A stretch of DNA of 47,485 bases, from positions 1-47,485 of the forward strand of contig NZ_WQNH01000037.1 in assembly GCF_009812055.1 (NCBI RefSeq), given 5' to 3'. This document shows, piece by piece, positions 1,347 through 35,556 of this stretch. Numbering within the stretch: the first letter of the stretch is position 1; each line of letters begins with the position of its first letter. The position numbers and the translations under genes are program-made. The notes beneath the pieces were generated by a model. The model saw only the letters and a program-made list of their open reading frames with translations. It did not search any database and was not told the DNA's origin. Origin of the DNA: Chelativorans xinjiangensis. Lineage in GTDB: Bacteria > Pseudomonadota > Alphaproteobacteria > Rhizobiales > Rhizobiaceae.

Positions 1347-3296
1347 ATGCAAAGGAGCGAATCTGAAGTCTTTGATCTCTTTTCCGAGATCTACACCAGC
1401 GCAACGCGCGAGGAGATGAGCCTACAGGAATACCTCCTTGCCTGTCGCGATGACCCGACCATGTACGCCACCGCGCCGGAGCGTATGGTGGAGGCCATCG
1501 GGGAGCCGACCCTCGTTGATACCAGTGCGGACGAGCGCCTTGGCCGCATCTTCGCCAACCGCACCATCAAGATCTACCCTTCCTTCACCGACTTCTATGG
1601 CATGGAAGACACGATCGAACGGATCGTCGGCTATTTCCGCTATGCCGCCCAAGGGCTCGAGGAGCGCAAGCAGATCCTCTATCTTCTGGGTCCGGTCGGC
1701 GGCGGCAAGTCGTCTCTGGCGGAGCGACTGAAGAAGCTCATGGAGCAGCGGCCGATCTATACGCTGATGGTGGGCGGGCAGGTCAGTCCCGTCTTCGAAT
1801 CGCCGCTCGGCCTCTTCCATCCCGAGCGCATGGCGGATCTTCTTGAGGACAAGTATGGCATTGCGCGGCGGCGGCTCACGGGCCTGATCTCGCCCTGGGC
1901 GACGAAGAGGCTCGACGAGATCGGCGGCGACATCTCCAAGTTTTCCGTCGTCAAGCTGGCGCCTTCCCGCCTACGCCAGCTCGGCATCGCCAAGACGGAG
2001 CCGGGCGACGAGAACAACCAGGACGTCTCGGCGCTGGTCGGCAAGGTGGATATCCGCCAGCTCGAGAATTACAGCCAGGCCGATCCCGACGCCTACTCCT
2101 ACAGCGGCGGCCTCAACCGCACCACGCAGGGGCTGCTTGAATTCGTCGAGATGTTCAAGGCGCCGATCAAGGTGCTGCACCCGCTTCTGACGGCCACCCA
2201 GGAGGGGAACTACAACGGCACCGAGAATTTCGGCGCCTTCCCCTATCAGGGCATCGTCGTGGCGCACTCCAACGAGTCGGAATGGCTGCAGTTCAAGAAC
2301 AACAAGAACAATGAGGCCTTCCTCGACCGCATCCTGGTGGTCAAGGTGCCGTACTGCCTGCGGGTGACCGAGGAGAAGCTGATTTACGAAAAGCTTCTGC
2401 GCGAGAGCGAACTGGTGGACAACCCCTGTGCGCCGGAGGTGCTCGATATCCTCAGCCGCTTCACCGTGTCGACGCGGCTTCATGAGCACGAAAACTCGCC
2501 GCTCTACACCAAGATGCGGGTCTATGACGGCGAGAACCTGAAGGACGTCGACCCCAAGGCGAAGTCCGTGCAGGAATACCGCGACGCCGCCGGCGTCGAC
2601 GAGGGCATGACCGGGGTGAGCACGCGGTTCGCCTTCAAGGTGCTGTCGGAGACGTTCAACTACGATACAAAGGAGGTTGCCGCCGACCCCGTGCACCTCA
2701 TGTACATCATGGAGCAGGCGATCCGGCGTGAGCAGTTCCCCAAGGAGGCGGAGACGGCGTATCTCGACTTCATCAAGTCGGAACTTGCCACGCGCTATGC
2801 GGAGTTTATCGGCCACGAGATCCAGAAGGCGTATCTGGAGTCCTACAGCGAGTACGGCCAGAACCTGTTCGACCGCTACATCGCGTATGCGGACGCGTGG
2901 CTGGAGGATCAGGACTTCAAGGACCCGGACACGGGGCAGATACTCAACCGCGAGATTCTCGACAGCGAACTGTCGCAGATCGAGAAGCCGGCGGGCATCG
3001 CCAATCCGAAGGACTTTCGCAACGAGGTGGTGAAGTTCACGCTGCGGGCGCGCGCCAAGAACCATGGGCGCAACCCCTCCTGGACCAGCTACGAGAAGCT
3101 GCGCGAGGTGATCGAGAAGCGCATGTTCGGCCAGGTGGAGGACCTCCTGCCGGTCATCAGCTTCGGCTCGAAGAAAGACAGCCAGACAGGGAAGCAGCAT
3201 GCGGACTTCGTCGCGCGCATGACCGAGCGCGGCTACACCGAACGTCAGGTGCGGCGGCTGGTCGACTGGTACATGCGCGTGAACAAGGCCGGCTGA
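1347..3296 (+). CDS. prkA: PrkA/YeaG family serine protein kinase
   Basis: The 649-residue product is close in length to E. coli YeaG (644 aa). It has the family's SLQEYL segment near residue 25, an AAA-type nucleotide-binding domain with Walker A GPVGGGKS at 115-122, and the distantly kinase-like C-terminal PrkA domain. PrkA proteins have been described as serine kinases or AAA proteases acting in nitrogen starvation, stationary phase or sporulation; the substrate here is unknown. The ATG at 1347 follows a GAGAG ribosome site and matches the family N-terminus. It heads the conserved prkA-yeaH-spoVR trio (25-base gap to yeaH), downstream of a candidate general-stress promoter. Confidence 0.95.
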   Translation: MQRSESEVFDLFSEIYTSATREEMSLQEYLLACRDDPTMYATAPERMVEAIGEPTLVDTSADERLGRIFANRTIKIYPSFTDFYGMEDTIERIVGYFRYAAQGLEERKQILYLLGPVGGGKSSLAERLKKLMEQRPIYTLMVGGQVSPVFESPLGLFHPERMADLLEDKYGIARRRLTGLISPWATKRLDEIGGDISKFSVVKLAPSRLRQLGIAKTEPGDENNQDVSALVGKVDIRQLENYSQADPDAYSYSGGLNRTTQGLLEFVEMFKAPIKVLHPLLTATQEGNYNGTENFGAFPYQGIVVAHSNESEWLQFKNNKNNEAFLDRILVVKVPYCLRVTEEKLIYEKLLRESELVDNPCAPEVLDILSRFTVSTRLHEHENSPLYTKMRVYDGENLKDVDPKAKSVQEYRDAAGVDEGMTGVSTRFAFKVLSETFNYDTKEVAADPVHLMYIMEQAIRREQFPKEAETAYLDFIKSELATRYAEFIGHEIQKAYLESYSEYGQNLFDRYIAYADAWLEDQDFKDPDTGQILNREILDSELSQIEKPAGIANPKDFRNEVVKFTLRARAKNHGRNPSWTSYEKLREVIEKRMFGQVEDLLPVISFGSKKDSQTGKQHADFVARMTERGYTERQVRRLVDWYMRVNKAG

Positions 3297-3321
3297 GCAA
3301 GCGGGACCCGCGGGGCCACCC

Positions 3322-4635
3322 ATGCCGAATTTCATCGATCGCCGCCTCAACCCGAAGGACAAGAGCCTCGGCAACCGGCGACGCTTTCTGAAGCGTGCGC
3401 GGGAGGAATTGAAGCGGACGATCAAGGAGCAGGTCAAGGCCGGCAAGATCGCCGACGTCGACGCGAAGCATTCCGTGCCGATGCCGGAGGGCGGCACCAG
3501 AGAGCCGTCCTTCCAGAACGCGAAGGGCAGCGGGCAGCGGGAATACGTGCTGCCGGGCAACAGGGAGTTCACACCGGGCGATCGCATCCCGAAGCCGTCT
3601 TCGGGCGGCGGTCAGGGCGGCTCCCGCGCGGGCACGGGCGATGCCGAAGACGACTTCCGGTTCGTGCTGTCCCGCGAGGAGGTGCTGGACCTGTTCTTCG
3701 AAGACCTGGAGCTCCCCGATATGGTGAAGCTCAGCCTCAAGGAAGCCATCGCCTACAAGCCGCGCCGCGCAGGCTTCGCCACCACCGGCACGCCCACCAA
3801 CATCAATGTCGGGCGCACCATGCGCAACAGCTACGGCCGCCGTCTGGCACTGCACCGCCCCAAACGCAAGGAGGTGGAGGCGCTGGCCGAGGAGATCGCC
3901 GCGCTGGAGGCGAAGCCGGCCACCGCCGAGAGACGCCGGCGCCTGGAGGCGCTGCGCCAGGAAGTGGAGAAGCTGGAGCGCCGGCGGCGGGTCATTGCCT
4001 ATGTCGATCCTGTCGACATCCGCTTCAACCGCTTCGAGCCACAGCCCTTGCCCAATGCCAACGCGGTGATGTTCTGCCTCATGGACGTCTCGAGCTCCAT
4101 GGGCGAGCGGGAGAAGGATCTGGCAAAACGCTTCTTCGTGCTTCTGCACCTTTTCCTCAAGCGGCGCTACGAGCGCATCGACATCGTCTTCATCCGCCAC
4201 ACGCACGAGGCGCGCGAGGTGGACGAGGAGACCTTCTTCTATTCGACGCAGAGCGGCGGCACGGTGGTTTCCACCGCGCTCGAGGAGATGCTTGGCATCA
4301 TCCGCAAGCGCTATCCGTCGAAGGAGTGGAACATCTATGCCGCCCAGGCCTCCGACGGCGACAACATCGCCGGGGATTCGGAGCGCTGCGCCTCACTTCT
4401 TCACGAGGCGGTGATGCGGCTTTGCCAGTACTATGCCTATATCGAGATCATCGACGAGCGCGAGACGGAGATCTTCGGGGCAACCGACAATGGAACGTCG
4501 CTGTGGCGCGCCTACCGGACCGTCGGCGCGAACTGGCCGAACTTCCAGATGACCCGGATCGCCCGGCCGGCGGACATCTATCCAGTCTTCCGCAAGCTTT
4601 TCGCCAGACAGCCCCTCGGGCAGGCTCGTAGCTGA
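3322..4635 (+). CDS. yeaH: YeaH/YhbH family protein (UPF0229, DUF444)
   Basis: This 437-residue protein belongs to the UPF0229/DUF444 family encoded beside prkA across proteobacteria. The N-terminus is highly basic (FIDRRLNPKDKSLGNRRRF) and is followed by a glycine-rich linker near residues 90-110. A charged helical segment spans about 175-225. A von Willebrand A-like domain follows with the MIDAS-type motif DVSSSMG near residue 255. The family is thought to act with PrkA, perhaps as an adaptor or target, but no enzymatic activity is established. Its position between prkA and spoVR, with short gaps on both sides, supports co-transcription. Confidence 0.93.
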   Translation: MPNFIDRRLNPKDKSLGNRRRFLKRAREELKRTIKEQVKAGKIADVDAKHSVPMPEGGTREPSFQNAKGSGQREYVLPGNREFTPGDRIPKPSSGGGQGGSRAGTGDAEDDFRFVLSREEVLDLFFEDLELPDMVKLSLKEAIAYKPRRAGFATTGTPTNINVGRTMRNSYGRRLALHRPKRKEVEALAEEIAALEAKPATAERRRRLEALRQEVEKLERRRRVIAYVDPVDIRFNRFEPQPLPNANAVMFCLMDVSSSMGEREKDLAKRFFVLLHLFLKRRYERIDIVFIRHTHEAREVDEETFFYSTQSGGTVVSTALEEMLGIIRKRYPSKEWNIYAAQASDGDNIAGDSERCASLLHEAVMRLCQYYAYIEIIDERETEIFGATDNGTSLWRAYRTVGANWPNFQMTRIARPADIYPVFRKLFARQPLGQARS

Positions 4636-21142: not shown

Positions 21143-22851
<1,709 letters not shown>

Positions 22852-22852
<1 letters not shown>

Positions 22853-23157
22853 CAGAGCTTTCCCATGATCTTCTGCTGGAAACCATACACCTTGCGTGCG
22901 CCGGAAAGCGGCACCAGCCGCACCTCGCGCGTCTGGCCCGGCTCGAAGCGGACCGCCGTTCCGGCGGCGATGTCGAGCCGCATCCCGCGCGCCTTGTCGC
23001 GGTCGAAGGAGAGCGCTTCGTTCACCTCGAAGAAGTGGTAGTGCGAGCCGACCTGCACCGGCCGGTCGCCGGTGTTGCTCACCTCCAACATTAACTGCTT
23101 CGCGCCGGTGTTGAACTCGATTTCGCCAGCTTTCGTAATGACTTCGCCCGGTATCAT
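22852..23157 (-). CDS. ureB: Urease beta subunit
   Basis: The 101-residue subunit matches the usual beta-chain length, with [16 protein letters not shown] at the start, [11 protein letters not shown] and [17 protein letters not shown]. It is structural, holding the catalytic alpha subunits together. The ATG at 23157 is set by homology. It is separated from ureA by ureJ, an arrangement seen in rhizobial urease loci. Confidence 0.97.
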
Positions 23158-23183
23158 GAGAGGTTGATTCCTTTTTCGAGTTG

Positions 23184-23774
23184 TCAGCCGGCGAAGGCCA
23201 GCCACAGACCCGCCAGCGCCGTGGCAAGGCCTGCGATGCGGGTCAGCGTGCCGCCCGTGACGTCCTTCTGCCGGTGGCCGAAGGCGAGGCCCGCCGCGAT
23301 ACCGGCGGCATGCAGGAGCGCGGTGGCGAGGGAGAAGCCGGCGGCGAACTGCAGCGCGCCTGCGGCGCCGAGCTCGCCGCCATGGGCGTGGCCGTGAAAG
23401 AAGGCGAAGAAGGCGACGACGCCTGCAACACCCGCTACGGGCAACGGAATGGCGAGCGCCACCATGAGGCCAATAAAGACCATGGAAGCGAGGATTACCG
23501 GTTCCACAAGCAGCAGCGGTGCGCCGAGAATGGCGGCGGCGAAGCCGAGGACCATCGTGCCGACGAAGGCGGCCGGCACCAGCATCAGCGCGCGCTGCCC
23601 AAGCGTTGCCGCCCACAGGCCGACCGCCACCATCACCAGAATATGATCGAGGCCGAAAAGCGGATGCGAGAAGCCGGCCATGAAGGAGCCGTGCTCGGCC
23701 GGGTTCAGGTGTGCAAAGGCGGGTGCGGTGGCGGTGAAGAGTGCCGCGGCGGCGAATGCGATACGTTTGAACAT
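23184..23774 (-). CDS. ureJ: HupE/UreJ family membrane protein
   Basis: The 196-residue protein begins with a cleavable signal ([21 protein letters not shown]). The HupE/UreJ signature [20 protein letters not shown] follows, with [10 protein letters not shown] as the proposed metal-binding motif, and then five or six helices. Family members are thought to move nickel across the inner membrane. Its location between ureA and ureB ties it to nickel supply for urease. Confidence 0.92.
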
Positions 23775-24118: not shown

Positions 24119-24949
24119 TTAGATGGTCCACAGGCGGGGCAGGGCGCCGGCGCCTGACAATAATGCGATGGCCGGCGCGAGTGTGCGCCGCAACATAAGA
24201 CCCGAAGGGGCAAGAATGCGCAAGATGAGGCGTTCGCCGATGGCGCTTGCTGCCGCATGGGCGTGTGGCGCGATCATCGCCCGCAGCGCCTCCAGCTTCT
24301 CCTCGGCGTCAGGCGTGACGGCGAGGAGGGTGGCGAAGGCGTTGTGGCCGGACAGCAGCGAAAGCCCGTCACGCTCGAAATCGTCGCCGGTAAGCCGCGT
24401 CGCCTCGGCATGGATGAGCCGGCCTGCGCGAAAGATGCGCCAGCTGTCCTTGAGCCGCGCCGAGCGGGCTGCCTCGCCCATTGCCTCGCGGCCGAGAAGC
24501 ACCGCCTCGACCGCGGTGAAGGTAGCGCCCTCGTCCAGGTTGACCGTCAGTGTGCGGTCGAGACGGCTTGCCTCGAACAGGATCGTCTCCTGCGGCAGCC
24601 AATCGACATGCGCGCCGGCGCCGAGGCGCAGCGTCGTCGATACCCGGGCATCATCCCCGGTCGAGCGGTAGGCGCGCTCGCAGGCCTGGGTGGTCAGCAC
24701 CAGTTTCGTGCCCGCCGCCGCTTCGGCCTCCCATTCCACGCGGTCACCGCCGGTGAGGCCGCCGGAGGTGTTGATCAGCACTGCCTCCAGCGCCGACCCG
24801 TGGCCGCGCGGCAGGCGGATCTTGCAACAGCCTTCCTGATAAAAGGTGTCGAGGCAGGTTTTTTCGCCGCGCAGCTTGGCGCCAAGCCGGCCGGTGCCGC
24901 GCGAGCGCTGCATGGGTGCGGGCATGGAGATGCGGTTGGCCATCGTCAT
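24119..24949 (-). CDS. ureD: Urease accessory protein UreD
   Basis: The 276-residue product has the conserved INTSGGLTGGDR segment (about 58-69), the TQACERAYRS block and LIHAEATRLTGD. UreD is the scaffold that binds apo-urease and recruits UreF/UreG for nickel insertion. It is the first gene of the urease block and follows the urtE gene after a RIME-like element. An alternative start at the second ATG (two codons in) cannot be excluded. Confidence 0.95.
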   Translation of the reverse strand: MTMANRISMPAPMQRSRGTGRLGAKLRGEKTCLDTFYQEGCCKIRLPRGHGSALEAVLINTSGGLTGGDRVEWEAEAAAGTKLVLTTQACERAYRSTGDDARVSTTLRLGAGAHVDWLPQETILFEASRLDRTLTVNLDEGATFTAVEAVLLGREAMGEAARSARLKDSWRIFRAGRLIHAEATRLTGDDFERDGLSLLSGHNAFATLLAVTPDAEEKLEALRAMIAPHAHAAASAIGERLILRILAPSGLMLRRTLAPAIALLSGAGALPRLWTI

Positions 24950-25183: not shown

Positions 25184-25888
25184 CTAAACCATCAAATGCC
25201 GCTTGACTTCCGGCTTGTCGAGATCGGATGCCGGCCCGGAATGGAGGATTTCGCCCCGGTCCATGACGTAGATACTGTCGGCCAGTTCGCGGCAGAAGTC
25301 GAGATACTGTTCCACCAGCAGGATCGTCATGCCCAACTCGTCGCGCAGGAATTGCAGTGCCCGGCCGATGTCCTTGATGATGGATGGCTGGATACCCTCC
25401 GTCGGCTCGTCGAGGATCAGCACCTTGGGCCGTGTCACCAGCGCCCTGCCGATGGCCAACTGTTGCTGCTGGCCACCGGACAGGTCGCCGCCCCGCCGGG
25501 AAAGCATCTCTTTCAGCACCGGAAAGAGGGTGAAGACCGTGTCGGGAACAAAGCGTTCGCCCGTTTTCAAGGGCGCGAAGCCTGTCTGCAGGTTCTCCCG
25601 CACCGTCAGAAGCGGGAAGATCTCGCGGCCCTGCGGCACGTAGCCGAGGCCGAGGCGGGCGCGCTTGTAGGGGGGGATCTTGCCGAATGCGGTGCCGTCG
25701 AAACGGACCTCGCCCCTCGAGATCGGGTGAACGCCGGCGATAGCCCTGAGCAGCGAGGATTTTCCCACGCCGTTGCGGCCGAGGACGGCGGTGATGGCGG
25801 CGGGGGCGGCTTCCACGCTCACTGATTTCAGCGCCCGCGCGGCGCCGTAGTAAAGGTCGATTCCGTCGACGGCGAGTGCCGTTACCAT
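25184..25888 (-). CDS. urtE: Urea ABC transporter ATP-binding protein UrtE
   Basis: The 234-residue ATPase of the LivF class has Walker A GRNGVGKS (37-44), a YVPQGREIFPLLTV Q-loop region, signature LSGGQQQQ and Walker B VLILDEPTEGIQPS, the last typical of UrtE. The ATG at 25888 is chosen because GGGGAGG lies just upstream; a GTG two codons earlier is possible. It is the last urt gene, five bases after the urtD stop, and is followed by the RIME-like element and ureD. Confidence 0.95.
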   Translation of the reverse strand: MVTALAVDGIDLYYGAARALKSVSVEAAPAAITAVLGRNGVGKSSLLRAIAGVHPISRGEVRFDGTAFGKIPPYKRARLGLGYVPQGREIFPLLTVRENLQTGFAPLKTGERFVPDTVFTLFPVLKEMLSRRGGDLSGGQQQQLAIGRALVTRPKVLILDEPTEGIQPSIIKDIGRALQFLRDELGMTILLVEQYLDFCRELADSIYVMDRGEILHSGPASDLDKPEVKRHLMV

Positions 25889-25890
25889 CC

Positions 25891-26640
25891 TCACCTCCCC
25901 AGATAGCTTTCGATGACGCGCGGGTCGGCGCTCACGTGGTCAAGGCTGCCCTGGGCCAGCACGGATCCCTCAGCCAGCACGGTGACGCGCGCGGCAAGGT
26001 CGCGGATGAAGCTCATGTCATGCTCGACCACGACGACGGAGCGGGACTTGGCGATCTCCCTCAGAAGCTTAGCCGTCTCCACCGTCTCGGCATCGGTCAT
26101 GCCGGCCACCGGCTCGTCGACGAGGAGCAGCTTCGGATCCTGGGCTAGCAGCATGCCGATCTCCAGCCATTGCTTCTGCCCGTGGCTCAGGTTCGCGGCG
26201 AGCTCCTCGCGGCGCTCCGTCAGGCGGATGGTGGCGAGGATGTCTTCCAGGCGCCCCACGTCTTCTTCGGAAGGGTGGTAGAACCAGGCGGAGAAGACGT
26301 CGCGTGGTTTCTTGAGCGCCAGTTCCAGATTGTCCCACACCGTGTGGCTTTCGAAGACGGTGGGTTTCTGGAATTTCCGGCCGATGCCAAGCTCGGCGAT
26401 GGCCGCTTCGTCGAGCCGCGTGAGGTCGACATCGCCGGCGAAGAAGACCTCGCCCTCATCGGGCCGTGTCTTGCCGGTTATGATGTCCATCATGGTCGTC
26501 TTGCCGGCGCCGTTGGGGCCGATGATGGCCTGGAGCTCGCCGTGCTGGACGATCAGCGACAGGTTGTTGATGGCCTTGAAACCGTCGAAGGAGACGGAGA
26601 CGCCGTCGAGATAGAGGAGAGGAGGATGGTTCTGATCCAT
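25891..26640 (-). CDS. urtD: Urea ABC transporter ATP-binding protein UrtD
   Basis: The 249-residue LivG-class ATPase has Walker A GPNGAGKTT (41-49), an IGRKFQKPTVFE Q-loop, the variant signature LSHGQKQWLEIG characteristic of UrtD, and Walker B LLLVDEPVAGMTD. It starts at ATG 26640, ten bases after urtC ends; upstream in-frame codons do not match the family. It forms the ATPase pair with UrtE. Confidence 0.95.
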   Translation of the reverse strand: MDQNHPPLLYLDGVSVSFDGFKAINNLSLIVQHGELQAIIGPNGAGKTTMMDIITGKTRPDEGEVFFAGDVDLTRLDEAAIAELGIGRKFQKPTVFESHTVWDNLELALKKPRDVFSAWFYHPSEEDVGRLEDILATIRLTERREELAANLSHGQKQWLEIGMLLAQDPKLLLVDEPVAGMTDAETVETAKLLREIAKSRSVVVVEHDMSFIRDLAARVTVLAEGSVLAQGSLDHVSADPRVIESYLGR

Positions 26641-26650
26641 GGGACGATAC

Positions 26651-27811
26651 CTACTCCGCCGGCGAGGGTTCGGGCGCGGCATCGCTGCCGTCCTCCGCCC
26701 GCGCCGAAACGCGCCGCGCCTTCAGAGCCGTCCATCCTTGCGCCAGCGCACCGACGATACCCTTGGGCAGAAACAGCGTGACGGCGACGAAGAGCCCGCC
26801 CAGAGCGAACAGCCAGAATTCGGGGAAGACCCCGGTGAACCAGGATTTGCCGGCGTTCACCAGCACCGCGCCGACGATCGGCCCGACGAGCGTGCCGCGC
26901 CCGCCGACGGCGGTCCAGATGACGATCTCGATGGAGTTGGCCGGCGCGAACTCGCCCGGATTGATGATGCCCACCTGCGGCACGTAGAGGGCACCGGCGA
27001 TGCCGGCGATGACGGCAGAGGCGGTGAAGGCGAAGAGCTTGTAGTTGTCGACGCGGTAGCCGAGGAAGCGCGTGCGGCTCTCCGCATCGCGCACGGCGAC
27101 CAGCACCTTGCCGAGCTTCGAGCGCACGATGGCCGAGCAGACGATGAAGGACAGCGCCAGCGCAATGGCCGAGGCGGCAAAGAGGGCGGCCCGCGTCGAG
27201 CCTGCCTGGAGGGGTGCGCCGAGGATGTCCTTGAAGTCTGTGAGGCCGTTGTTGCCGCCGAAACCCATGTCGTTGCGGAAGAAGGCCAGGAGCAGCGCGT
27301 AGGTCATCGCCTGGGTGATGATGGAGAGATAGACGCCCGTCACGCGGGAGCGGAAGGCGAACCAGCCGAAAACGAAGGCGAGCAGCCCCGGCACGAGCAC
27401 GACCATGATGGCAGCGAACCAGAACATGTCGAAGCCGTACCAGAACCACGGTAGTTCCTGGTAGTTCAGGAACACCATGAAATCGGGCAGGATGGGGTTG
27501 GCGTAGACGCCGCGGTCACCGATCTGGCGCATGAGGTACATGCCCATGGCGTAGCCGCCGAGGGCGAAGAAGGCGCCGTGGCCGAGTGAGAGGATGCCGC
27601 AGTAGCCCCAGACCAGGTCGAGCGCCAGCGCCAGCATCGCGTAAGTGAGGTATTTTCCCAGCAGCGGCACGAAGTGATTGGGCACGCGCAGCGGGTGGCC
27701 GACGGGCAGATAGAGGTTGGAGGCAGGCACGGCGATGGCGATCGTGATGAGGATCGCCACCACTAGAGAAGTCTTGCCGTCAAAGGCGCGCAGGAGCGTT
27801 CTCGTAATCAT
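26651..27811 (-). CDS. urtC: Urea ABC transporter permease UrtC
   Basis: The 386-residue LivM-type permease has about nine hydrophobic segments and the UrtC landmarks GYCGILSLGHGAFFALGGYA and NNGLTDFKDILG. The EAA-like loop with RDAESRTRFLGYRVDNYK contacts the ATPases. Its ATG at 27811 overlaps the urtB stop (ATGA), indicating coupled translation. Longer in-frame sequence upstream belongs to the reverse reading of urtB. Confidence 0.95.
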   Translation of the reverse strand: MITRTLLRAFDGKTSLVVAILITIAIAVPASNLYLPVGHPLRVPNHFVPLLGKYLTYAMLALALDLVWGYCGILSLGHGAFFALGGYAMGMYLMRQIGDRGVYANPILPDFMVFLNYQELPWFWYGFDMFWFAAIMVVLVPGLLAFVFGWFAFRSRVTGVYLSIITQAMTYALLLAFFRNDMGFGGNNGLTDFKDILGAPLQAGSTRAALFAASAIALALSFIVCSAIVRSKLGKVLVAVRDAESRTRFLGYRVDNYKLFAFTASAVIAGIAGALYVPQVGIINPGEFAPANSIEIVIWTAVGGRGTLVGPIVGAVLVNAGKSWFTGVFPEFWLFALGGLFVAVTLFLPKGIVGALAQGWTALKARRVSARAEDGSDAAPEPSPAE

Positions 27812-29421
27812 GCGTCCACCGCCCGGCCCTTGAGCGCGAACAACCCGCGCGGGCGCCGCTGGATGAAGAGAATGATGAAGACGAGGATGAAAATCTTGGC
27901 GAGTACGGCGCCGGCGTAGGGCTCCAGGAACTTGTTGGCGACGCCCAGCGTCAACGCCCCCACCAGCGTGCCCCACAGGTTGCCGACGCCGCCGAAGACG
28001 ACGACCATGAAACTGTCGATGATGTAGCTCTGGCCGAGATTGGGCGAGACGTTGTCAATCTGGGAGAGCGCCACGCCCGCCATGCCGGCGATGCCGGAGC
28101 CCAGCCCGAAGGTCATGGCGTCGACCCAGGGGGTGCGAATGCCCATGGAGGAGGCCATGCGGCGGTTCTGGGTCACGGCGCGCATCTGCAGGCCCAGCGG
28201 CGTGCGGTTGAGCACGGCAAGAAGGACGGCGAAGACGACGAGCGCGAAGACGATGATCCACAGCCGATTCCAGGTGATCGACAAGCCGGCGAGATCGAAG
28301 GCGCCGGACATCCAGGAAGGGTTCCCCACCTCACGGTTGTTGGGGCCGAAGATGGTGCGCACGGTCTGCTGCAGGAACAGGCTGAGGCCCCAGGTGGCGA
28401 GCAGTGTTTCGAGCGGCCGTCCGTAGAGCCAGCGGATGATGCCGCGCTCGATGGCGATGCCGACGAGCGCCGTCACCAGGAAGGCGAGGGGCAGGGCGAT
28501 GGCCAGCGAATAGTCGAAAAGGCCGGGGAAGGAGGTGCGGATCACCTGCTGCACGGCGAAGGTGGTGTAGGCGCCCAGCATGACGATTTCGCCATGAGCC
28601 ATGTTGATGACGCCCATCACGCCGAAGGTGATGGCAAGGCCGATGGCCGCCAGAAGGAGCACGGAGCCGAGCGACAGCCCGTACCAGACGTTCTGCAGCC
28701 CGTCCCACATGGCGAGCTTGCGCTCGATGCCGGCAATGCCGCGCTCGATGACCGGCTGAAGCTCGGGCGCGGCGGAAGAGTGCGCGCCCGTCAGCATCGC
28801 CAGCGCCTCGCGGTCCCCTCGCGCGGCGAGGAGGTCGATGGCGGCCGCCTTCTCCTCGATGCCGGCATCGGTCTTGATGATGATCGCGGCGCGCGCCGTC
28901 TCCATCATCTTCTTCACCTGCGGGTCTGTCTCGGCGGCGAGTGCCGTGCCCAATAGTTCCAGGGAATCGGGATCGGCGTTTCTCAAGAGGCTGCGCGCGG
29001 CCCTGAGGCGCACCGGCGGGCTGGGGCTCATCAGGGTCAGTTGCCCAATGGCGCTGCGGACAGCGCGGCGCAGCCGGTTGTTGACGCGGATCTTTTCCAG
29101 CGCAGAGGAAGGGGCGGTGCCCAGCTCTTCACCGGTGAGCGCGTCGGTCAGCGCATAGTCGCGCCCGGCGCGCTTGCCTGCGACCACGCGGCCATCCTCT
29201 TCACGCACGTAGAGATCGCCTTCGCCCAGTGCGTCGAGCAACCCCGCCACGCGCTCATCGCCGGTGGCGGCGAGATCGAAGATCACCTTCTCTCGGTCGG
29301 AATAGCCGCCCTCGGGCAGGGCGTTCACGAGGGCCTCGACGTCCTGCGCGAAGGCACTGCTCGTCGTAAACAGCAACGCGAGCGCGACGAGGAGTGTCCG
29401 GATGAGGCAGGTTGGGTGCAT
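27808..29421 (-). CDS. urtB: Urea ABC transporter permease UrtB
   Basis: The 537-residue protein has a signal peptide (MHPTCLIRTLLVALALLFT, cleavage near AFA/QD, 25/26). A long periplasmic N-terminal domain of about 200 residues typical of UrtB follows, then a LivH-type permease with INMAHGEIVMLGAY and the RAVTQNRRMASSMGI loop. The ATG at 29421 begins the signal peptide. The frame remains open for another 77 codons upstream through the RIME-like element, but that sequence is not protein-like. Confidence 0.93.
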   Translation of the reverse strand: MHPTCLIRTLLVALALLFTTSSAFAQDVEALVNALPEGGYSDREKVIFDLAATGDERVAGLLDALGEGDLYVREEDGRVVAGKRAGRDYALTDALTGEELGTAPSSALEKIRVNNRLRRAVRSAIGQLTLMSPSPPVRLRAARSLLRNADPDSLELLGTALAAETDPQVKKMMETARAAIIIKTDAGIEEKAAAIDLLAARGDREALAMLTGAHSSAAPELQPVIERGIAGIERKLAMWDGLQNVWYGLSLGSVLLLAAIGLAITFGVMGVINMAHGEIVMLGAYTTFAVQQVIRTSFPGLFDYSLAIALPLAFLVTALVGIAIERGIIRWLYGRPLETLLATWGLSLFLQQTVRTIFGPNNREVGNPSWMSGAFDLAGLSITWNRLWIIVFALVVFAVLLAVLNRTPLGLQMRAVTQNRRMASSMGIRTPWVDAMTFGLGSGIAGMAGVALSQIDNVSPNLGQSYIIDSFMVVVFGGVGNLWGTLVGALTLGVANKFLEPYAGAVLAKIFILVFIILFIQRRPRGLFALKGRAVDA

Positions 29422-29461
29422 CGTCTTGGTATCCACCGCTGAGGGGATGTTTTCGCTCTTT

Positions 29462-29621
29462 CGCGCGCCCTTCTGGCCTGCCGGCCATCTCCCCCGCATG
29501 AGGGAGATCAGCCTTCCGCTACGTATCGCCTGCTCTGGGGCATGTGATTTGGCGGAGGCCTTGATGAAAGCTGATCTCCCCCCTTTGCGGGGGAGATGGC
29601 CGGCAGGCCAGAGGGGGCGCG
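29462..29621. repeat. RIME-like inverted-repeat element between urtA and urtB
   Basis: Arms at 29462-29512 and 29570-29621 are near-perfect reverse complements sharing CTGGCCTGCCGGCCATCTCC and GGAGATCAGC, enclosing about 57 unrelated bases. The core motif matches the element at 24961-25150, so the two are copies of one family. It lies in the 234-base gap between urtB and urtA and could fold in mRNA, lowering urtB expression relative to urtA. Confidence 0.78.
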
Positions 29622-29655
29622 AAGGGGCGCGACGTTGGCCACGCCCCCTCAAACG

Positions 29656-30951
29656 TCAGCTCGCCCCACCGCAGCTCTTCGTCTCGGTGTTGTAGTTCCC
29701 GCAGCTGATCGGCGCGGTCCAATCCGCCTCGATCATCTTCGATTCCGGCAGGAAATCCGACCAGGCGTCGCCCGGCACCACCTCTTCCGTCTCCCACACC
29801 ACCTCGAACTGGCCGTCGTCCTGGATCTCGCCGATCAGCACGGGCTTGGTGATGTGGTGGTTGGGGAGCATCTTGGCGATGCCGCCGGTGAGGTTCGGCG
29901 TCTCCAGCCCGATGATGGCGTCGAGCACGGCGTCGGTGTCGGTCGTGCCGGCCTTCTCGACCGCCTGGACCCAGAGATTGAAGCCGACCACATGGGCTTC
30001 CATCGGATCGTTGGTCACGCGGTCCTCGTCGCCGATGAACTCGCGCCATTTGGCGATGAAGTCCTCGTTCTCGGGCGTGTCGACGGACTGGAAGTAGTTC
30101 CAGGCCGCGAGGTGCCCAACGAGCGGTTCGGTGTCGATGCCGGCAAGCTCTTCCTCGCCCACGGAGAAGGCGACGACGGGGATGTCTTCCGCCGCGATGC
30201 CCTGGTTGGCGAGTTCCTTGTAGAACGGCACGTTGGCGTCGCCATTGATGGTGGAAACCACCGCCGTCTTCTTGCCCGCCGAGCCGAACGCCTTGATGTC
30301 CGAGACGATCGTCTGCCAGTCGGAATGGCTGAACGGCGTGTAGTTGATCATGATGTCCTCGGCGGCGACACCCTTGTCCATCAGGTATTGCTCGAGGATC
30401 TTGTTGGTCGTGCGCGGATAGACGTAGTCGGTGCCGGCCAGCACCCAGCGCTCCACGCCTTCCTCGTTCATCAGGTAGTCGACGGCGGGTATGGCCTGCT
30501 GGTTGGGGGCCGCACCCGTGTAGAAGACATTGCGCTGGCTCTCCTCGCCCTCGTACTGCACGGGGTAGAAGAGGATAGAGTTCAGCTCCTCGAAGACCGG
30601 AAGGACGGACTTTCGGCTGACCGACGTCCAGCAGCCGAATACGGCCGCAACCTCGTCGACGGAAATCAACTCGCGCGCCTTCTCGGCGAAGAGCGGCCAA
30701 TCGGAGGCGGGGTCGACGACGACGGCCTCGAGCTTCTTGCCGAGAAGCCCGCCCTTCTTGTTCTGCTCGTCGATGAGGAAGAGCATCGTGTCCTTCAGCG
30801 TCGTCTCGGAGATCGCCATGGTGCCCGAGAGCGAATGCAGGACGCCGACCTTGATGGTCTCCTCCTGTGCATAAGAGATGCCTGCGGAGAGGCTCACGGA
30901 GCCAGCGAGAGCCGCTGCGAGAACCGCGCGGCGGGTGAATCTGGTGCTCAT
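29656..30951 (-). CDS. urtA: Urea ABC transporter substrate-binding protein UrtA
   Basis: The 431-residue periplasmic protein has a twin-arginine-like signal (TRRAVLAAALAG, cleavage near SYA/QEE at 28/29). Its mature part is a urea/short-chain-amide binding protein, starting IKVGVLHSLSGTMAISE and containing AVFGCWTSVSRKSVLPVFEE and ILFYPVQYEGEE, all characteristic of UrtA. It is the first urt gene. The 326-base gap upstream to the divergent kinase gene holds the palindromic element at 31071-31182; no clear -24/-12 or NtrC site was seen. Confidence 0.97.
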   Translation of the reverse strand: MSTRFTRRAVLAAALAGSVSLSAGISYAQEETIKVGVLHSLSGTMAISETTLKDTMLFLIDEQNKKGGLLGKKLEAVVVDPASDWPLFAEKARELISVDEVAAVFGCWTSVSRKSVLPVFEELNSILFYPVQYEGEESQRNVFYTGAAPNQQAIPAVDYLMNEEGVERWVLAGTDYVYPRTTNKILEQYLMDKGVAAEDIMINYTPFSHSDWQTIVSDIKAFGSAGKKTAVVSTINGDANVPFYKELANQGIAAEDIPVVAFSVGEEELAGIDTEPLVGHLAAWNYFQSVDTPENEDFIAKWREFIGDEDRVTNDPMEAHVVGFNLWVQAVEKAGTTDTDAVLDAIIGLETPNLTGGIAKMLPNHHITKPVLIGEIQDDGQFEVVWETEEVVPGDAWSDFLPESKMIEADWTAPISCGNYNTETKSCGGAS

Positions 30952-31070
30952 CTGTCTGTTCCCCTGAGAAAGATCGATTGGGCCGAGAGGTCGGGCCGGA
31001 GGGAAGTTTGCAGCGGAAGGCGGGAAGCGCCTATACGTCGAACAACGTAGGTGGATTTCGCCAGCGGAAG

Positions 31071-31277: not shown

Positions 31278-34200
31278 ATGAAAAAGGCAATGGCGCGGCA
31301 GCGGATTCTTCCTATCAGGCGCGAATATAACCGCTGGGTCGCCAACCAGACGCTGGAGGACTATGCGCTGCGCTTCACGGCGAAGAGCGCCCGCCGCTTC
31401 TCCAGCCAGCGCATCTCGCAGACGGCCATCGGCGCCATTTCCTTTCTGGCGCTGGAGGCGATCGGCGGGGCGATCACGCTCTCCTACGGCACCGCCAATG
31501 CTATCGCCGCCATCGTCGTCGCCAGTATCGCCATCCTGGCGGTCGGCGTGCCGATCTCGCGCTATGCCACGCGCCACGGCCTCGACATCGACCTTCTGAC
31601 GCGCGGCGCGGGTTTCGGCTATATCGGCTCGACCGTCACCTCGCTGGTCTATGCGAGCTTCACCTTCATCCTCTTTGCCATTGAGGCGTCGATCATGACG
31701 GGCGCACTAAGGCTCGCCTTCGGCATTCCGCCGTGGATCGGCTACATCATCAGCGCCGTGGTGGTGATCCCGCTGGTCACCCACGGGGTGAAGCTCATCA
31801 GCCGCTTCCAGCTTCTCACCCAGCCTGTCTGGATCGTGCTCAACATCCTGCCCTTCCTCTTCATCGCCTGGCTCGACTGGGAAAAGTTCGACCTGTGGCG
31901 CGCCTTCCCCGGTATCCACGAGGTACCGGGCAGCATCTCCGCGCTGGAGGTTGCGAAGTTCGGCGCGGCGTCGGCCGTCATCCTCGCTCTGATGACGCAG
32001 ATCGGCGAGCAGGTCGATTTCCTGCGCTTCCTGCCGGCCGACGGCGAGAAGCGCAAGCGCTACCGCCTCGGCGTCTTTCTCGCCGGCCCCGGCTGGGTAC
32101 TGGTCGGCGCGCCGAAGCTTCTGGCGGGCTCGTTTCTTGCCGTTCTGGTGCTTTCGACCGGCGTGGCGCCCGAGCACGCGTCGGAGCCGGCGGAGATGTA
32201 TGCCGCGGCATTCGGCTACATGATCCCCAACGAAACCCTGGCGCTGGTGTTGATGGCGATCTTCGTCGTCGTCTCGCAGCTCAAGATCAACGTGATGAAC
32301 GCCTATGCGGGCTCGCTCGCCTGGTCGAACTTCTTCTCGCGCCTCACCCACAGCCATCCCGGCCGCGTGGTCTGGCTGGTCTTCAACGTTGCCATCGCGC
32401 TTCTCCTGATGGAGCTCGGCATATACCGGCTTCTGGAAGCGACCCTTGCCATCTTCTCCATCGTCGCCATGGCGTGGCTGTGCACGGTCTCGGCAGATCT
32501 CTTCGTCAACAAGCCGCTGGGGCTTGCACCGCCCGGCATCGAGTTCAAGCGCGCGCATCTCTACGACATCAACCCCGTCGGTCTCGGCTCCATGTCACTT
32601 TCGGCGGGTATCGCGCTCGCGGCGCATTTCGGCGCCTTCGGCCAGATGGCCGCGGCGCTTGCTCCCTATATCGCTCTCGTGACGGCTTTCATCGCAGCCC
32701 CGGCCATCGCCTATGCTACCGGCGGCAAATACTATCTGGCGCGCAAGCCGCGCAGGGCCTGGGCCGGCAAGGGGGCGATCACCTGCTCCATCTGCGAGCA
32801 TCCGTTCGAGCCGGAGGACATGGCCTGGTGCCCGGCCTATGCCGCGCCGATATGTTCGCTGTGCTGCTCGCTCGATGCGCGCTGCCACGATCTGTGCAAG
32901 CCTAAAGCCAATGCCAGGGCGCAGGCCATGACCCTGGCCGAGAGCCTGCTGCCTGCCTTGGCGGTGGAAAAATTGCAGACGCGGCTCGGCAAGTTCGGCA
33001 TGGCGATGGTGTTCGCCGTGGCGCTCCTCGGCGCCATCCTGGCGCTGGTCTACTCCTTCGCCACGAAGGTCGCGCCGGAGACGGCGGATGTGGTGGGCGG
33101 AACCATCCTCGTGGTCTTTTTCGCCTTCTCGGTGGTTGCCGGCATCGTCGCCTGGTTCCTGGTGCTCGCGCACGACAGCCGCAGGATAGCCGAGGAAGAG
33201 AGTGCGCGGCAGAACACGCTGCTCCTGAGGGAAATCTCGGCGCACCGGAAGACCGATGCCGCATTGCAGATGGCCAAGGAGAAGGCGGAAGCGGCCAACC
33301 GGGCCAAGAGCCGCTATGTCGTTGGCCTCTCGCATGAGCTGCGCACGCCGCTCAACGCCGTCCTGGGTTACGCTCAGATATTGGAGCGGGAGGAGGCGGC
33401 GCCTGCTCCCTGGCGCTCCTCGATCAGCGTCATTCGGCGCAGCGCCGAGCATTTGTCGGGCCTGATCGACGGCCTGCTTGACATCTCAAAGATCGAGACG
33501 GGGCGGCTGCAGGTCTATTCCAACGAGATCAACCTATACGATTTCCTCGACCAGATCGTCGGCATGTTCCGCCTGCAGGCCGAGGCCAAGGGGTTGGCTT
33601 TCCGGCACAAGCGCGATCCGGGCCTGCCGCAATATGTGCGCACGGACGAGAAGCGGCTGAGGCAAATCCTCGTCAACCTGCTCTCCAACGCTATCAAGTT
33701 CACCGACAGCGGCCATGTCGACTTCACGGTCGGCTACCGTTCGGAGGTGGCTACCTTTCGGGTTGCCGACAGCGGCCCCGGCATCGGCGAGAGCGACCTG
33801 GAACATGTCTTCGAGCCCTTCGTGCGCGGTCCGGCCGAGCGCAACCGCCTGTCGCCGGGGCTGGGCCTCGGCCTCACCATCACCAGGCTCCTGACGGAGA
33901 CGCTGGGCGGCGAAATCACGGTCGAAAGCGCGCCGGGAGCGGGTTCGACCTTCCAGGTGCGCCTGATGCTCGCCAAGGTCGACCGGCCGGCGGCCTTCGC
34001 CGCGCAGGATTTCATCGTCAAGGGCTACAGAGGCGCGCGCCGTACGGTCATGGTGGTGGACGACAATGCCGAGCACCGCGAAATGATGCGGCAGATGCTG
34101 CAGCCGCTCGACTTCACGGTGCTTACCGCCGTCGACGGGCCTGACTGCCTGGCAATGATCGAAAGCGCGCGGCCGGACCTTGTCTTCGTCGACATCCTCA

Positions 34201-34649
34201 TGCCCGGCATGACGGGCTGGGAGCTGGTCGAGCGGCTGCGCGAGAAGGGCTTCTCCGCCCCCATCGTCATGCTGTCGGCCAATATCGGCGACGGCATCGC
34301 CAAGACCAACCGCGACGCCGGTCACAACGACGCCATGGCAAAGCCCTTCGGCCTGCGCCAACTGCTCGAAAAGATCGCCGCACAACTACGGCTCGAATGG
34401 ATCGAGGGGGTGGAAAAGCCGGTGCCTGCCGCCGAGGGCAACGGGCTCTGCTCACCCGGCGCGGACGATGTGCGTGAGCTTCTGAGCCTTGGCAAGATCG
34501 GCCATGTGCGTGGCATCGACCGCAAGCTGACGGAGCTTGCGGCCAGACCCGAGAACACGCCATTGGTCGAGCGTCTGAGGGCGCATATGGAAGTCTACGA
34601 CTTTGCCGGCTACACCAAGGTTCTGGAAAGCGTGAGCGAGCATGAGTGA
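31278..34649 (+). CDS. Transporter-linked hybrid histidine kinase with cysteine cluster
   Basis: The 1123-residue protein joins four parts. Residues about 40-490 form a 12-helix permease-like region of the NCS1 (cytosine/purine permease) type. Residues 503-540 hold a cluster of eight cysteines (C503, 506, 518, 526, 529, 530, 536, 540) resembling a zinc or iron-sulfur site. Two further helices follow (about 572-632) and a short coiled coil. The kinase has the H box SHELRTPLN with phosphoacceptor H686, the N box NLLSNAIKF (800-808), DSGPGIG and a glycine-rich GLGLGL. A C-terminal receiver has D928/D929 and phosphoacceptor D972. It is divergent from urtA and overlaps the next regulator gene by eight bases. 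ATG 31278 follows AGGGGGA at short spacing; 31290 is an alternative. The ligand is unknown. Confidence 0.85.
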   Translation: MKKAMARQRILPIRREYNRWVANQTLEDYALRFTAKSARRFSSQRISQTAIGAISFLALEAIGGAITLSYGTANAIAAIVVASIAILAVGVPISRYATRHGLDIDLLTRGAGFGYIGSTVTSLVYASFTFILFAIEASIMTGALRLAFGIPPWIGYIISAVVVIPLVTHGVKLISRFQLLTQPVWIVLNILPFLFIAWLDWEKFDLWRAFPGIHEVPGSISALEVAKFGAASAVILALMTQIGEQVDFLRFLPADGEKRKRYRLGVFLAGPGWVLVGAPKLLAGSFLAVLVLSTGVAPEHASEPAEMYAAAFGYMIPNETLALVLMAIFVVVSQLKINVMNAYAGSLAWSNFFSRLTHSHPGRVVWLVFNVAIALLLMELGIYRLLEATLAIFSIVAMAWLCTVSADLFVNKPLGLAPPGIEFKRAHLYDINPVGLGSMSLSAGIALAAHFGAFGQMAAALAPYIALVTAFIAAPAIAYATGGKYYLARKPRRAWAGKGAITCSICEHPFEPEDMAWCPAYAAPICSLCCSLDARCHDLCKPKANARAQAMTLAESLLPALAVEKLQTRLGKFGMAMVFAVALLGAILALVYSFATKVAPETADVVGGTILVVFFAFSVVAGIVAWFLVLAHDSRRIAEEESARQNTLLLREISAHRKTDAALQMAKEKAEAANRAKSRYVVGLSHELRTPLNAVLGYAQILEREEAAPAPWRSSISVIRRSAEHLSGLIDGLLDISKIETGRLQVYSNEINLYDFLDQIVGMFRLQAEAKGLAFRHKRDPGLPQYVRTDEKRLRQILVNLLSNAIKFTDSGHVDFTVGYRSEVATFRVADSGPGIGESDLEHVFEPFVRGPAERNRLSPGLGLGLTITRLLTETLGGEITVESAPGAGSTFQVRLMLAKVDRPAAFAAQDFIVKGYRGARRTVMVVDDNAEHREMMRQMLQPLDFTVLTAVDGPDCLAMIESARPDLVFVDILMPGMTGWELVERLREKGFSAPIVMLSANIGDGIAKTNRDAGHNDAMAKPFGLRQLLEKIAAQLRLEWIEGVEKPVPAAEGNGLCSPGADDVRELLSLGKIGHVRGIDRKLTELAARPENTPLVERLRAHMEVYDFAGYTKVLESVSEHE

Positions 34650-35556
34650 CGTAATCCCGGAAGGGGAGATCGTTCTGGTCGTCGATGATTCACCCGAGGC
34701 GCTGGGCTTCCTTACGCATGCGCTGGAGGAGGAAGGTGTCACCGTGCTGGTCTCTACCAGCGGCGAGGCGGCCTTGAGCATCGCCGGGAAGGTGACACCG
34801 GACGTCGTGCTCATGGACGCCATGATGCCCGGCCTCGACGGCTTCGAGACGTGCCGCCGGCTGAAGGCACTGCCGGGCACAGCACATGTGCCGGTTATCT
34901 TCATGACGGCGCTGACGGAGACGGAACACGTGGTGCACGCGCTGGAATCGGGCGGCGTCGACTACCTCACCAAACCCATCAACCTGGAGGAGATGCGTGC
35001 GCGCATGCGCGTGCATCTGGCCAATGCGCGGCGTGCGCAGAGCGCGCGCGTGGCACTGGATGCCGCGGGAAGGCACCTGATCGCACTGTCGGCGACGGGC
35101 GAGGTGCATTGGTCGACGCCGCAGGCGAACAGGCTCCTCAACGCGCCGGAGGCCGGCGAGGGGGTTCTTACGGCGCTTCGAGAGCGGATGCGGCAATGGT
35201 TCGGCGGGCGCGATCCGGCGGCACTCACCGGCGAAAGCCTGACGTTGAGGCTCGCCGATTCCAGCGATCTGCAACTTGTGTGCCTCGGCATGATCGCCTC
35301 TGACGAGCATCTCTTCCGCCTGGTCTCCCAGGGCGGCGCCAAGGAAGAGGAGACGCTGCGCCAGCATTTCGGCCTGACGCTCCGGGAAAGCGAAGTGCTG
35401 GTGTGGATCGCCCGCGGCAAAACCAACCGCGACATCGCCGACATCCTGAAGCTAAGCCCGCGCACGGTGAACAAGCATCTCGAGCAGATCTACGTGAAAC
35501 TGGGCGTCGAGAACCGCGCCTCGGCGGCCGTCAAGGCGATGCACGTGCTGACCTGA
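34642..35556 (+). CDS. Response regulator with LuxR-type HTH
   Basis: The 304-residue protein has an N-terminal receiver with acidic pair D15/D16, phosphoacceptor D59 (VVLMDAMMPG) and the KPIN lysine. A middle segment of about 100 residues shows no known domain, and a LuxR/FixJ HTH (about 240-300; LTLRESEVLVWIARGKTNRDIA) ends the protein. It would bind DNA when phosphorylated by the upstream kinase. ATG 34642 overlaps the kinase stop by eight bases, so the two are a coupled pair. It ends three bases from a convergent isomerase gene. Confidence 0.9.
   Translation: MSDVIPEGEIVLVVDDSPEALGFLTHALEEEGVTVLVSTSGEAALSIAGKVTPDVVLMDAMMPGLDGFETCRRLKALPGTAHVPVIFMTALTETEHVVHALESGGVDYLTKPINLEEMRARMRVHLANARRAQSARVALDAAGRHLIALSATGEVHWSTPQANRLLNAPEAGEGVLTALRERMRQWFGGRDPAALTGESLTLRLADSSDLQLVCLGMIASDEHLFRLVSQGGAKEEETLRQHFGLTLRESEVLVWIARGKTNRDIADILKLSPRTVNKHLEQIYVKLGVENRASAAVKAMHVLT

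Follow-up and report, generated by a model that had tools for sequence, protein, structure and literature searches.

A permease-fused hybrid histidine kinase and its response regulator beside the urea genes of Chelativorans xinjiangensis: a probable dedicated two-component system for urea use

Beside the urea genes of Chelativorans xinjiangensis lie two genes, encoding a hybrid histidine kinase with an N-terminal NCS1-type permease domain and a response regulator, which together probably form a two-component system dedicated to urea use. The stretch analysed, referred to here as the window, comprises 47,485 nucleotides (NCBI RefSeq assembly GCF_009812055.1, contig NZ_WQNH01000037.1, positions 1 to 47,485 of the forward strand). 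The kinase gene (31278..34649, forward strand, 1123 amino acids) was delimited by its open reading frame and characterized with Pfam, AlphaFold2, and Foldseek; the regulator gene (34642..35556, forward strand, 304 amino acids) overlaps it by 8 bases, and urtA (29656..30951, reverse strand) is divergent from both. The overlap and the divergence, both claimed in an earlier note on this DNA, agree with the open reading frame coordinates. Between urtA and the kinase gene is a palindrome (31031..31052, 22 bp, with the core ATACGTCGAACAACGTA at 31033-31049) that was located by matrix and pattern scans and is proposed as the operator of the response regulator.

The kinase begins with a permease-like domain (approximately residues 40-490; 31395..32747) of NCS1 fold, the proposed ligand sensor. 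An eight-cysteine module (residues 503-540; 32784..32897), proposed to be a two-zinc finger linker, comes next, followed from residue 569 by further helices that lead into a signalling helix (32982..33197; AlphaFold2 secondary structure). Pfam then places HisKA at residues 677-742 (33306..33503), HATPase_c at 789-898 (33642..33971), and a receiver (Response_reg) at 924-1033 (34047..34376), all on the forward strand like the parts before them. The earlier note had described this same order of parts (12-helix permease, cysteine cluster, helices, HisKA/HATPase, receiver) within 1123 residues, and the open reading frame, Pfam, and the structural model bore it out. With these three signalling domains and their conserved H and D, the protein is a hybrid histidine kinase; neither an Hpt domain nor a PAS match was found in its Pfam scan. 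The regulator, described earlier as LuxR-type, does carry a GerE/LuxR helix-turn-helix (HTH) domain (residues 245-299, with N277 in the recognition helix). It also carries a receiver (REC, residues 11-122) and is thus more precisely a two-component response regulator of the NarL/FixJ type (Pfam). The approximately 120 residues between REC and HTH, to which Pfam assigned no family above its cut-off, may constitute an additional sensory domain.

The genes following urtA on the reverse strand were assigned from Pfam families and gene order as urtB (27808..29652) and urtC (26651..27976), whose starts were not refined, urtD (25891..26682), and urtE (25184..25894). In order after these come ureD, encoding a urease accessory protein (24119..24949, reverse strand), and ureC, encoding the urease alpha subunit (21143..23227, reverse strand, start not refined). 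The window UrtA scored 565.7 bits against TIGR03407 (cut-off 492.75) and, together with UrtB-E, identifies the Urt urea ATP-binding cassette (ABC) transporter. TIGR03407 was also passed by the UrtA-like protein of a formamide-type copy, L009 (547.3 bits), so the model cannot separate the urea type from the formamide type. L009 is the second kinase-regulator pair of the window's own genome (L009:7242-17999, 51% identity) and is divergent from a UrtA-like operon with the formamidase FmdA.

Relatives of the kinase are widespread. Among the best 5000 plasmid records, at least 501 had a match over 80% or more of the query, and in the order a match at E <= 1e-150 was present in 29 of 150 genomes; given such recurrence, the arrangement is not due to chance. 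We assembled 145 loci with the permease region: the second copy of the window's own genome, 29 from the order sample, 80 from named genomes, and 35 from a phylum sample. The named-genome loci were the best 80 of 579 relatives, and near kin are therefore over-represented. The phylum sample, in which 52 of 398 genomes had a match, is fairer; from it were taken all 33 places outside the order and two from the window's family, other same-order matches being left out. Five loci were not informative for linkage, one because it encodes a stand-alone transporter (L189) and four because of a contig edge (L059, L109, L120, L192), leaving 140.

Linkage to urea genes, central to the proposal of the earlier note, proved to be conserved: 138 of the 140 informative loci adjoin urea (urt/ure) or formamide (UrtA-like transporter, FmdA) genes, including all 31 of those outside the window's order, where the linked genes were urt, ure, or fmd. 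A divergent urea-type UrtA was present in 81 linked loci, 17 of which also had ureC in the stretch retrieved; in 46, the divergent UrtA was nearer the formamide-type copy, and 44 of these had FmdA, which scored above the NCBIfam cut-off in the four loci tested. The remainder had a co-oriented UrtA with ureC (2 loci), ureC alone (7), or FmdA alone (2). Across all 145 loci, an UrtA-type match lay within the fetched stretch beside the permease gene in 129. Four open reading frames between urtA and the kinase gene in three sampled loci encoded DUF488, Asp_Arg_Hydrox, PAP2, and ArsC, with no common intruder. Within the 150-genome order sample, an UrtA-type protein was found in 29/29 kinase-bearing genomes and in 56/121 others; the transporter thus often occurs without the kinase.

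The regulator was found no more than 200 bp downstream of the kinase in 134/145 loci. It had no match in L054 and L120 (contig edge), in L189 (no kinase), or in L066 and L210; in L179, L181, L190, L195, L201, and L208, the regulator search gave none or a later match. The L066 (L066:5356-11356) and L210 kinases are shortened (approximately 885-899 amino acids), without the C-terminal receiver or a detected LuxR partner. In L066, the kinase is followed by a REC-HisKA-HATPase protein and FmdA, and the relay there seems to have been rewired.

The palindrome emerged from a word-pair search of the region between kinase and urtA: ATACG-N7-ACGTA occurred in 40 of 41 non-redundant urea loci, compared with at most 3 for any pair after shuffling (one single-base shuffle per sequence). 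The resulting 22-bp matrix is near-palindromic (approximately rcATACGTCRATTGACGTATgy). In the window, the palindrome has its centre roughly 90 bp upstream of the urtA start codon and is the only match there to a looser pattern, with 0.01 expected. It was missing before all 40 control urtA genes without a kinase beside them; these controls, a subset of those available, all came from the window's order, four of them (L243, L244, L246, L249) from genomes with the kinase elsewhere. A matrix trained on formamide loci scored 47/47 urea loci above the best of the 40 controls (12.1), 46 of them at 21.4 or more and one only narrowly, at 12.8. Conversely, with the urea-trained matrix, 38/44 formamide loci outscored the best control (9.7): 23 reached at least 17.1, and 15 passed by a small margin (9.8-12.0). 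Control of the urt genes by the kinase, as proposed in the earlier note, is supported by this restriction of the site to urtA genes that have the kinase.

Position and genome-wide occurrence of the site were also considered. In 35 non-training urea loci where urtA is 0.8-7.8 kb from the kinase, the site was found 65-180 bp before the urtA match in 33, so the site goes with urtA. The exact form, TACGTCN4GACGTA, was scanned through 26 of the 29 kinase-bearing order-sample genomes (all except G035, G112, and G143) and 26 of the 40 control genomes. It occurred at 20 places in 19 of the kinase-bearing genomes, with 18 of the places lying ahead of the linked UrtA-type gene; the control genomes had 2 places. 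The pattern written backwards, used as a control, gave 5 places in the kinase-bearing and 7 in the control genomes. The sole exact sites off the linked operon in the kinase-bearing genomes, G050:C1:479344 and G023:C1337:68650, may be extra targets or chance matches.

The palindrome covaries with the recognition helix of the regulator. Where residue 277 was N, as in the window, TACGT half-sites were found on both sides in 74 of 92 loci with a site; where it was D, the half-site was TACGC in 14 of 16. The D277 form was seen in Bradyrhizobium, Afipia, and kin and hence probably reflects one event. Strongly changed recognition helices (e.g. L178, L206, L064, L065, L182) were found without a good site, and no palindrome stood out as an alternative operator for them in the small sets available. 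In the L178 group, some word pairs recurred in 5/5 loci, compared with 3 in one shuffle; the loci are, however, close kin.

Promoter geometry is compatible with activation. Over 46 urea loci, the palindrome and a -10-like element of urtA had a fixed spacing; among 38 offsets toward urtA, only at 42 did the -10-like A and T fill over 60% of cells (83%), and the commonest form in relatives was GATAGT (17/46). The corresponding element in the window, CAAACT (31005..31010, reverse strand), shares this spacing. The centre of the palindrome would thereby fall near -42 or -43 of the predicted urtA start. Activators that touch the -35 region bind near -42 or -43. Control of the divergent region by sigma-54 was also considered and rejected: the pattern was found toward urtA in 1/47 urea and 0/44 formamide loci and toward the kinase in 0/47 and 2/44, and being nearly absent it leaves no general role for sigma-54.

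A few loci carry more than one copy of the site. L088 has two palindromes, located at -923 and -111 with respect to the kinase match; one precedes urtA and the other the kinase, which suggests autoregulation in that species. L179, L181, L201, and L208 have a second palindrome-like copy close after the operator (e.g. TTACGTCATGCTGCGTAT), possibly a tandem site.

The permease domain is NCS1-like as judged by fold and by one intermediate sequence, even though the window protein misses the Pfam profile. The AlphaFold2 model of residues 1-659 (30-sequence alignment; mean predicted local distance difference test [pLDDT] 79.5, predicted template modelling score [pTM] 0.81) has about 12 core helices to residue 481, then the cysteine region, then helices at 569-598 and 600-658. 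Its four best matches in the PDB were NCS1 chains of CodB and Mhp1, led by CodB 7qoa (E 6.2e-9, template modelling score 0.74-0.76 by target length). These are similar in fold, but they are stand-alone transporters without a kinase and share only 14-18% identity over the aligned part. An SSS protein ranked fifth, followed by further LeuT-fold proteins. No Pfam family matched the permease region of the window protein, and PF02133 was absent among the families matched by 30 relatives. The intermediate is L189, a stand-alone relative (26-28% identity to the permease region, E 3.2e-29) that does match PF02133 (E 3.6e-9; 36.4 bits, cut-off 23.5). A gene for a carbon-nitrogen hydrolase follows its own (L189:9449-12668), and a distant UrtA-like match (28%) is located nearby. 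Membership of SSS/SLC5 was ruled out by the fold ranking and by the lack of any SSS family match in Pfam, which settles in favour of the NCS1 type a choice the earlier note had left open. Searches by sequence against solved structures were unproductive: phmmer with residues 1-641 returned nothing at E <= 1, and a profile of the 30 relatives returned only CRIPT (E 4.1), over the cysteine region.

The eight cysteines of the linker (C503, C506, C518, C526, C529, C530, C536, C540) were all kept in 145 of 145 kinase rows, the window included. This conservation across homologues, which the earlier note had suggested comparing, equals that of H686 in HisKA (145/145) and is nearly matched by D972 in the receiver (144/145). 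A separate model of residues 490-566, built from an alignment of 72 of 91 chosen rows, contains strands in the linker (mean pLDDT 81.0, pTM 0.58). Its fold matches were mostly RING, PHD, ZZ, and FYVE fingers, none of them significant (best E 0.4, Foldseek). These matches argue mildly for a structural role, and the likeliest reading of the module is a two-zinc structural connector rather than a redox sensor. The stretch before the module varies: the L209 and L178 kinases, both urease-linked, have 76 and 43 residues there, compared with 16 in the window (residues 488-503).

Urea and formamide linkage were mapped on a tree of 77 of 146 permease rows, a quick tree with some long rows that took in 12 of the 80 loci from named genomes but not L192. 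Among rows bearing one of the two labels, 4 changes between urea and formamide were counted; with unlinked rows counted in a group table, there were 5 changes for urea and 7 for formamide, compared with a shuffled mean of 26. The window belonged to a starred set that comprises 25 urea rows and 1 unlinked row (26 in all) and contains all urea rows of its order. In an exploratory comparison, columns differing between the classes were frequent in one helix (residues 393-405), and no column separated all four urea clades, 3 at most agreeing.

From these results, we consider it likely that the locus encodes a dedicated two-component system for urea use, in which a urea-sensing permease-kinase and its regulator activate the urt(-ure) operon through the predicted operator. 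The reconstructed order of events would be as follows: the NCS1-type permease domain acts as a receptor for urea (for formamide or short amides in sister clades), or reports its passage. The signal would then pass through the cysteine module, probably a rigid two-zinc connector of RING/ZZ-like form, and the following helices to the HisKA/HATPase core, and the kinase would phosphorylate the regulator encoded by the overlapping gene. Its own receiver may be a side branch or tuning step, as the lack of an Hpt domain in the Pfam scan suggests. A regulator dimer would bind the palindrome before urtA, which lies about 42 bp ahead of where transcription is predicted to start, and would activate rather than repress the urt(-ure) operon. 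Extended to the whole family, the interpretation is of widespread NCS1 transceptor kinases with RING-like zinc coupling, direct urea or formamide receptors, about four ligand switches, mostly one operator type, and essentially one-promoter regulons; we give this broader version about an even chance.

Several observations weigh against the proposed urea system. The relatives are not independent of one another, and the locus counts overstate their independence. L119 and L141 are true exceptions to the linkage, with no urea or formamide genes found; their scanned 20-kb neighbours (TauE, DUF2793, DctM, and others) suggested no alternative partner. The covariation of N277 and D277 lies within one lineage, and T277 regulators (10 loci) had TACGT in 7. 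The window's own -10-like element is weak. The looser pattern had 4 matches in the window's genome, equal to its backwards control, and 7 of the 26 kinase-bearing genomes, among them the window's own, had no exact form. Of the 38 formamide loci that passed the control, 15 did so only narrowly, which slightly lowers our confidence. In L200 and L204, the site is close to the kinase gene instead of urtA. The palindrome scored below 14 in the intergenic stretch of 6/44 formamide loci, among them L009, where the regulator helix (RTVNKHLEQ) is nonetheless close to consensus; its absence at this second copy may insulate the two systems of the window's genome. No site of 14 or more was found in 7 of 9 ureC-linked loci without a divergent urtA (L178, L180, L183, L193, L195, L202, L206); of the other two, L209 had one of 16.4 before the kinase, and L203 only one of 18.0, approximately 9.7 kb off. 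L182, L066, and L210 were also without a site of 14 or more. Given these gaps, the operator belongs to most examined members of the family, not to all.

Other explanations of the locus have to be weighed. The view that the linkage is mere neighbourhood inertia and the palindrome the property of another regulator has in its favour the close kinship of many relatives and the loci without a palindrome. However, linkage persists beyond the window's class, the type of operon tracks the kinase, and a site that was found at 0/40 urtA genes without a kinase also covaries with the recognition helix; this explanation is thus very improbable. It is instead conceivable, if unlikely, that urt/ure (or fmd) control operates as proposed while the permease senses some other signal, such as a nucleobase, an allantoin-like compound, membrane energy, ammonia, or pH. 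NCS1 proteins of solved structure carry cytosine and hydantoins, according to the entry titles, and the earlier note had named urea, purine, and hydantoin as candidate ligands. Among these, urea is favoured by the neighbourhoods, with formamide in sister clades; 138/140 neighbourhoods are of these two kinds, and purine and hydantoin found no support, although no search specifically targeted purine or allantoin genes. The switching of linkage between two small amides on the permease tree and the candidate positions in the 393-405 helix (exploratory) also speak against another signal.

The permease domain might also be a working urea or formamide transporter whose flux the kinase monitors, a true transceptor as proposed for CbrA (PMC13022988). 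We regard this as a possibility, though a rather doubtful one. The CbrA precedent and the stand-alone relative L189, with its carbon-nitrogen hydrolase and distant UrtA-like neighbours, are in its favour; a urea-type ABC importer, however, adjoins in most loci (the 129 with an UrtA-type match), so a second carrier seems unneeded. Finally, the cysteine cluster could be a second sensory input, to metal or redox, that gates the urea response. Urease requires nickel, and the invariance of the eight cysteines could be taken to fit such a sensor. The CxxC spacing, that same invariance, and the uniform, though non-significant, RING/PHD/ZZ-type matches suit structural zinc. The metal or redox input proposed in the earlier note is unsupported, although no systematic search for a linked metal or redox gene was made, and we consider a second sensor quite unlikely.

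The nearest known relatives of the proposed urea kinase are other transporter-fused kinases. CbrA of Pseudomonas, described as an SLC5-STAC histidine kinase transceptor (PMC13022988), likewise has a transporter domain fused to a histidine kinase and nutrient sensing tied to transport. CbrA has an SLC5/SSS transporter, a STAC linker, and a PAS domain; the kinase here, in contrast, has an NCS1 fold, an eight-cysteine linker, no PAS match, a C-terminal receiver, and a urea/formamide neighbourhood. CrbS/CrbR and RpuS/RpuR are similar in pairing a transporter-fused kinase with a response regulator and in being tied to one nutrient pathway, but CrbS and RpuS are of the SLC5/STAC type and serve acetate or pyruvate; neither 'urea' nor 'NCS1' occurs in the main text of the RpuS paper. 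The present kinases differ in transporter family and, to the extent tested, in linker; they are therefore not filed with the SLC5/STAC kinases, but they may work alike.

Two published gene lists contain similar loci. A table for Dechloromonas aromatica lists a 1131-amino-acid kinase and a 308-amino-acid receiver before urtA (PMC2907700), and in Ectopseudomonas guguanensis G3 urtABCDE and fmdA are adjoined by genes for a hybrid kinase and a LuxR regulator (PMC13296017). The likeness rests on the gene order in those lists, not on sequence identity, and the passages concerned list the genes without a transporter domain, cysteine module, binding site, or function. A full-text literature search, thin on subscription journals, returned no functional description of such a system or its target site. 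Transporter-fused kinases are already known; the NCS1/eight-cysteine type with a urea target site appears to be new.

UreR, an AraC-type urea regulator, and the amide sensor AmiC/AmiR control urease or amidase genes. Both are urea- or amide-responsive like the proposed system, but they belong to other regulator families. Urea is a main nitrogen fertilizer and an excreted form of nitrogen; to our knowledge, little is known of its sensing at the membrane by soil bacteria. With a transporter-fold sensor, a narrow predicted target, and two ligand classes on one tree, the system offers a clean test of the change from transporter to receptor, and also of what sets urea versus formamide specificity. 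The predicted operator could serve in biosensors for urea or formamide. Elsewhere in the window, genes encoding a PrkA serine kinase and a DUF444 protein were found in tandem at 1347-4635.

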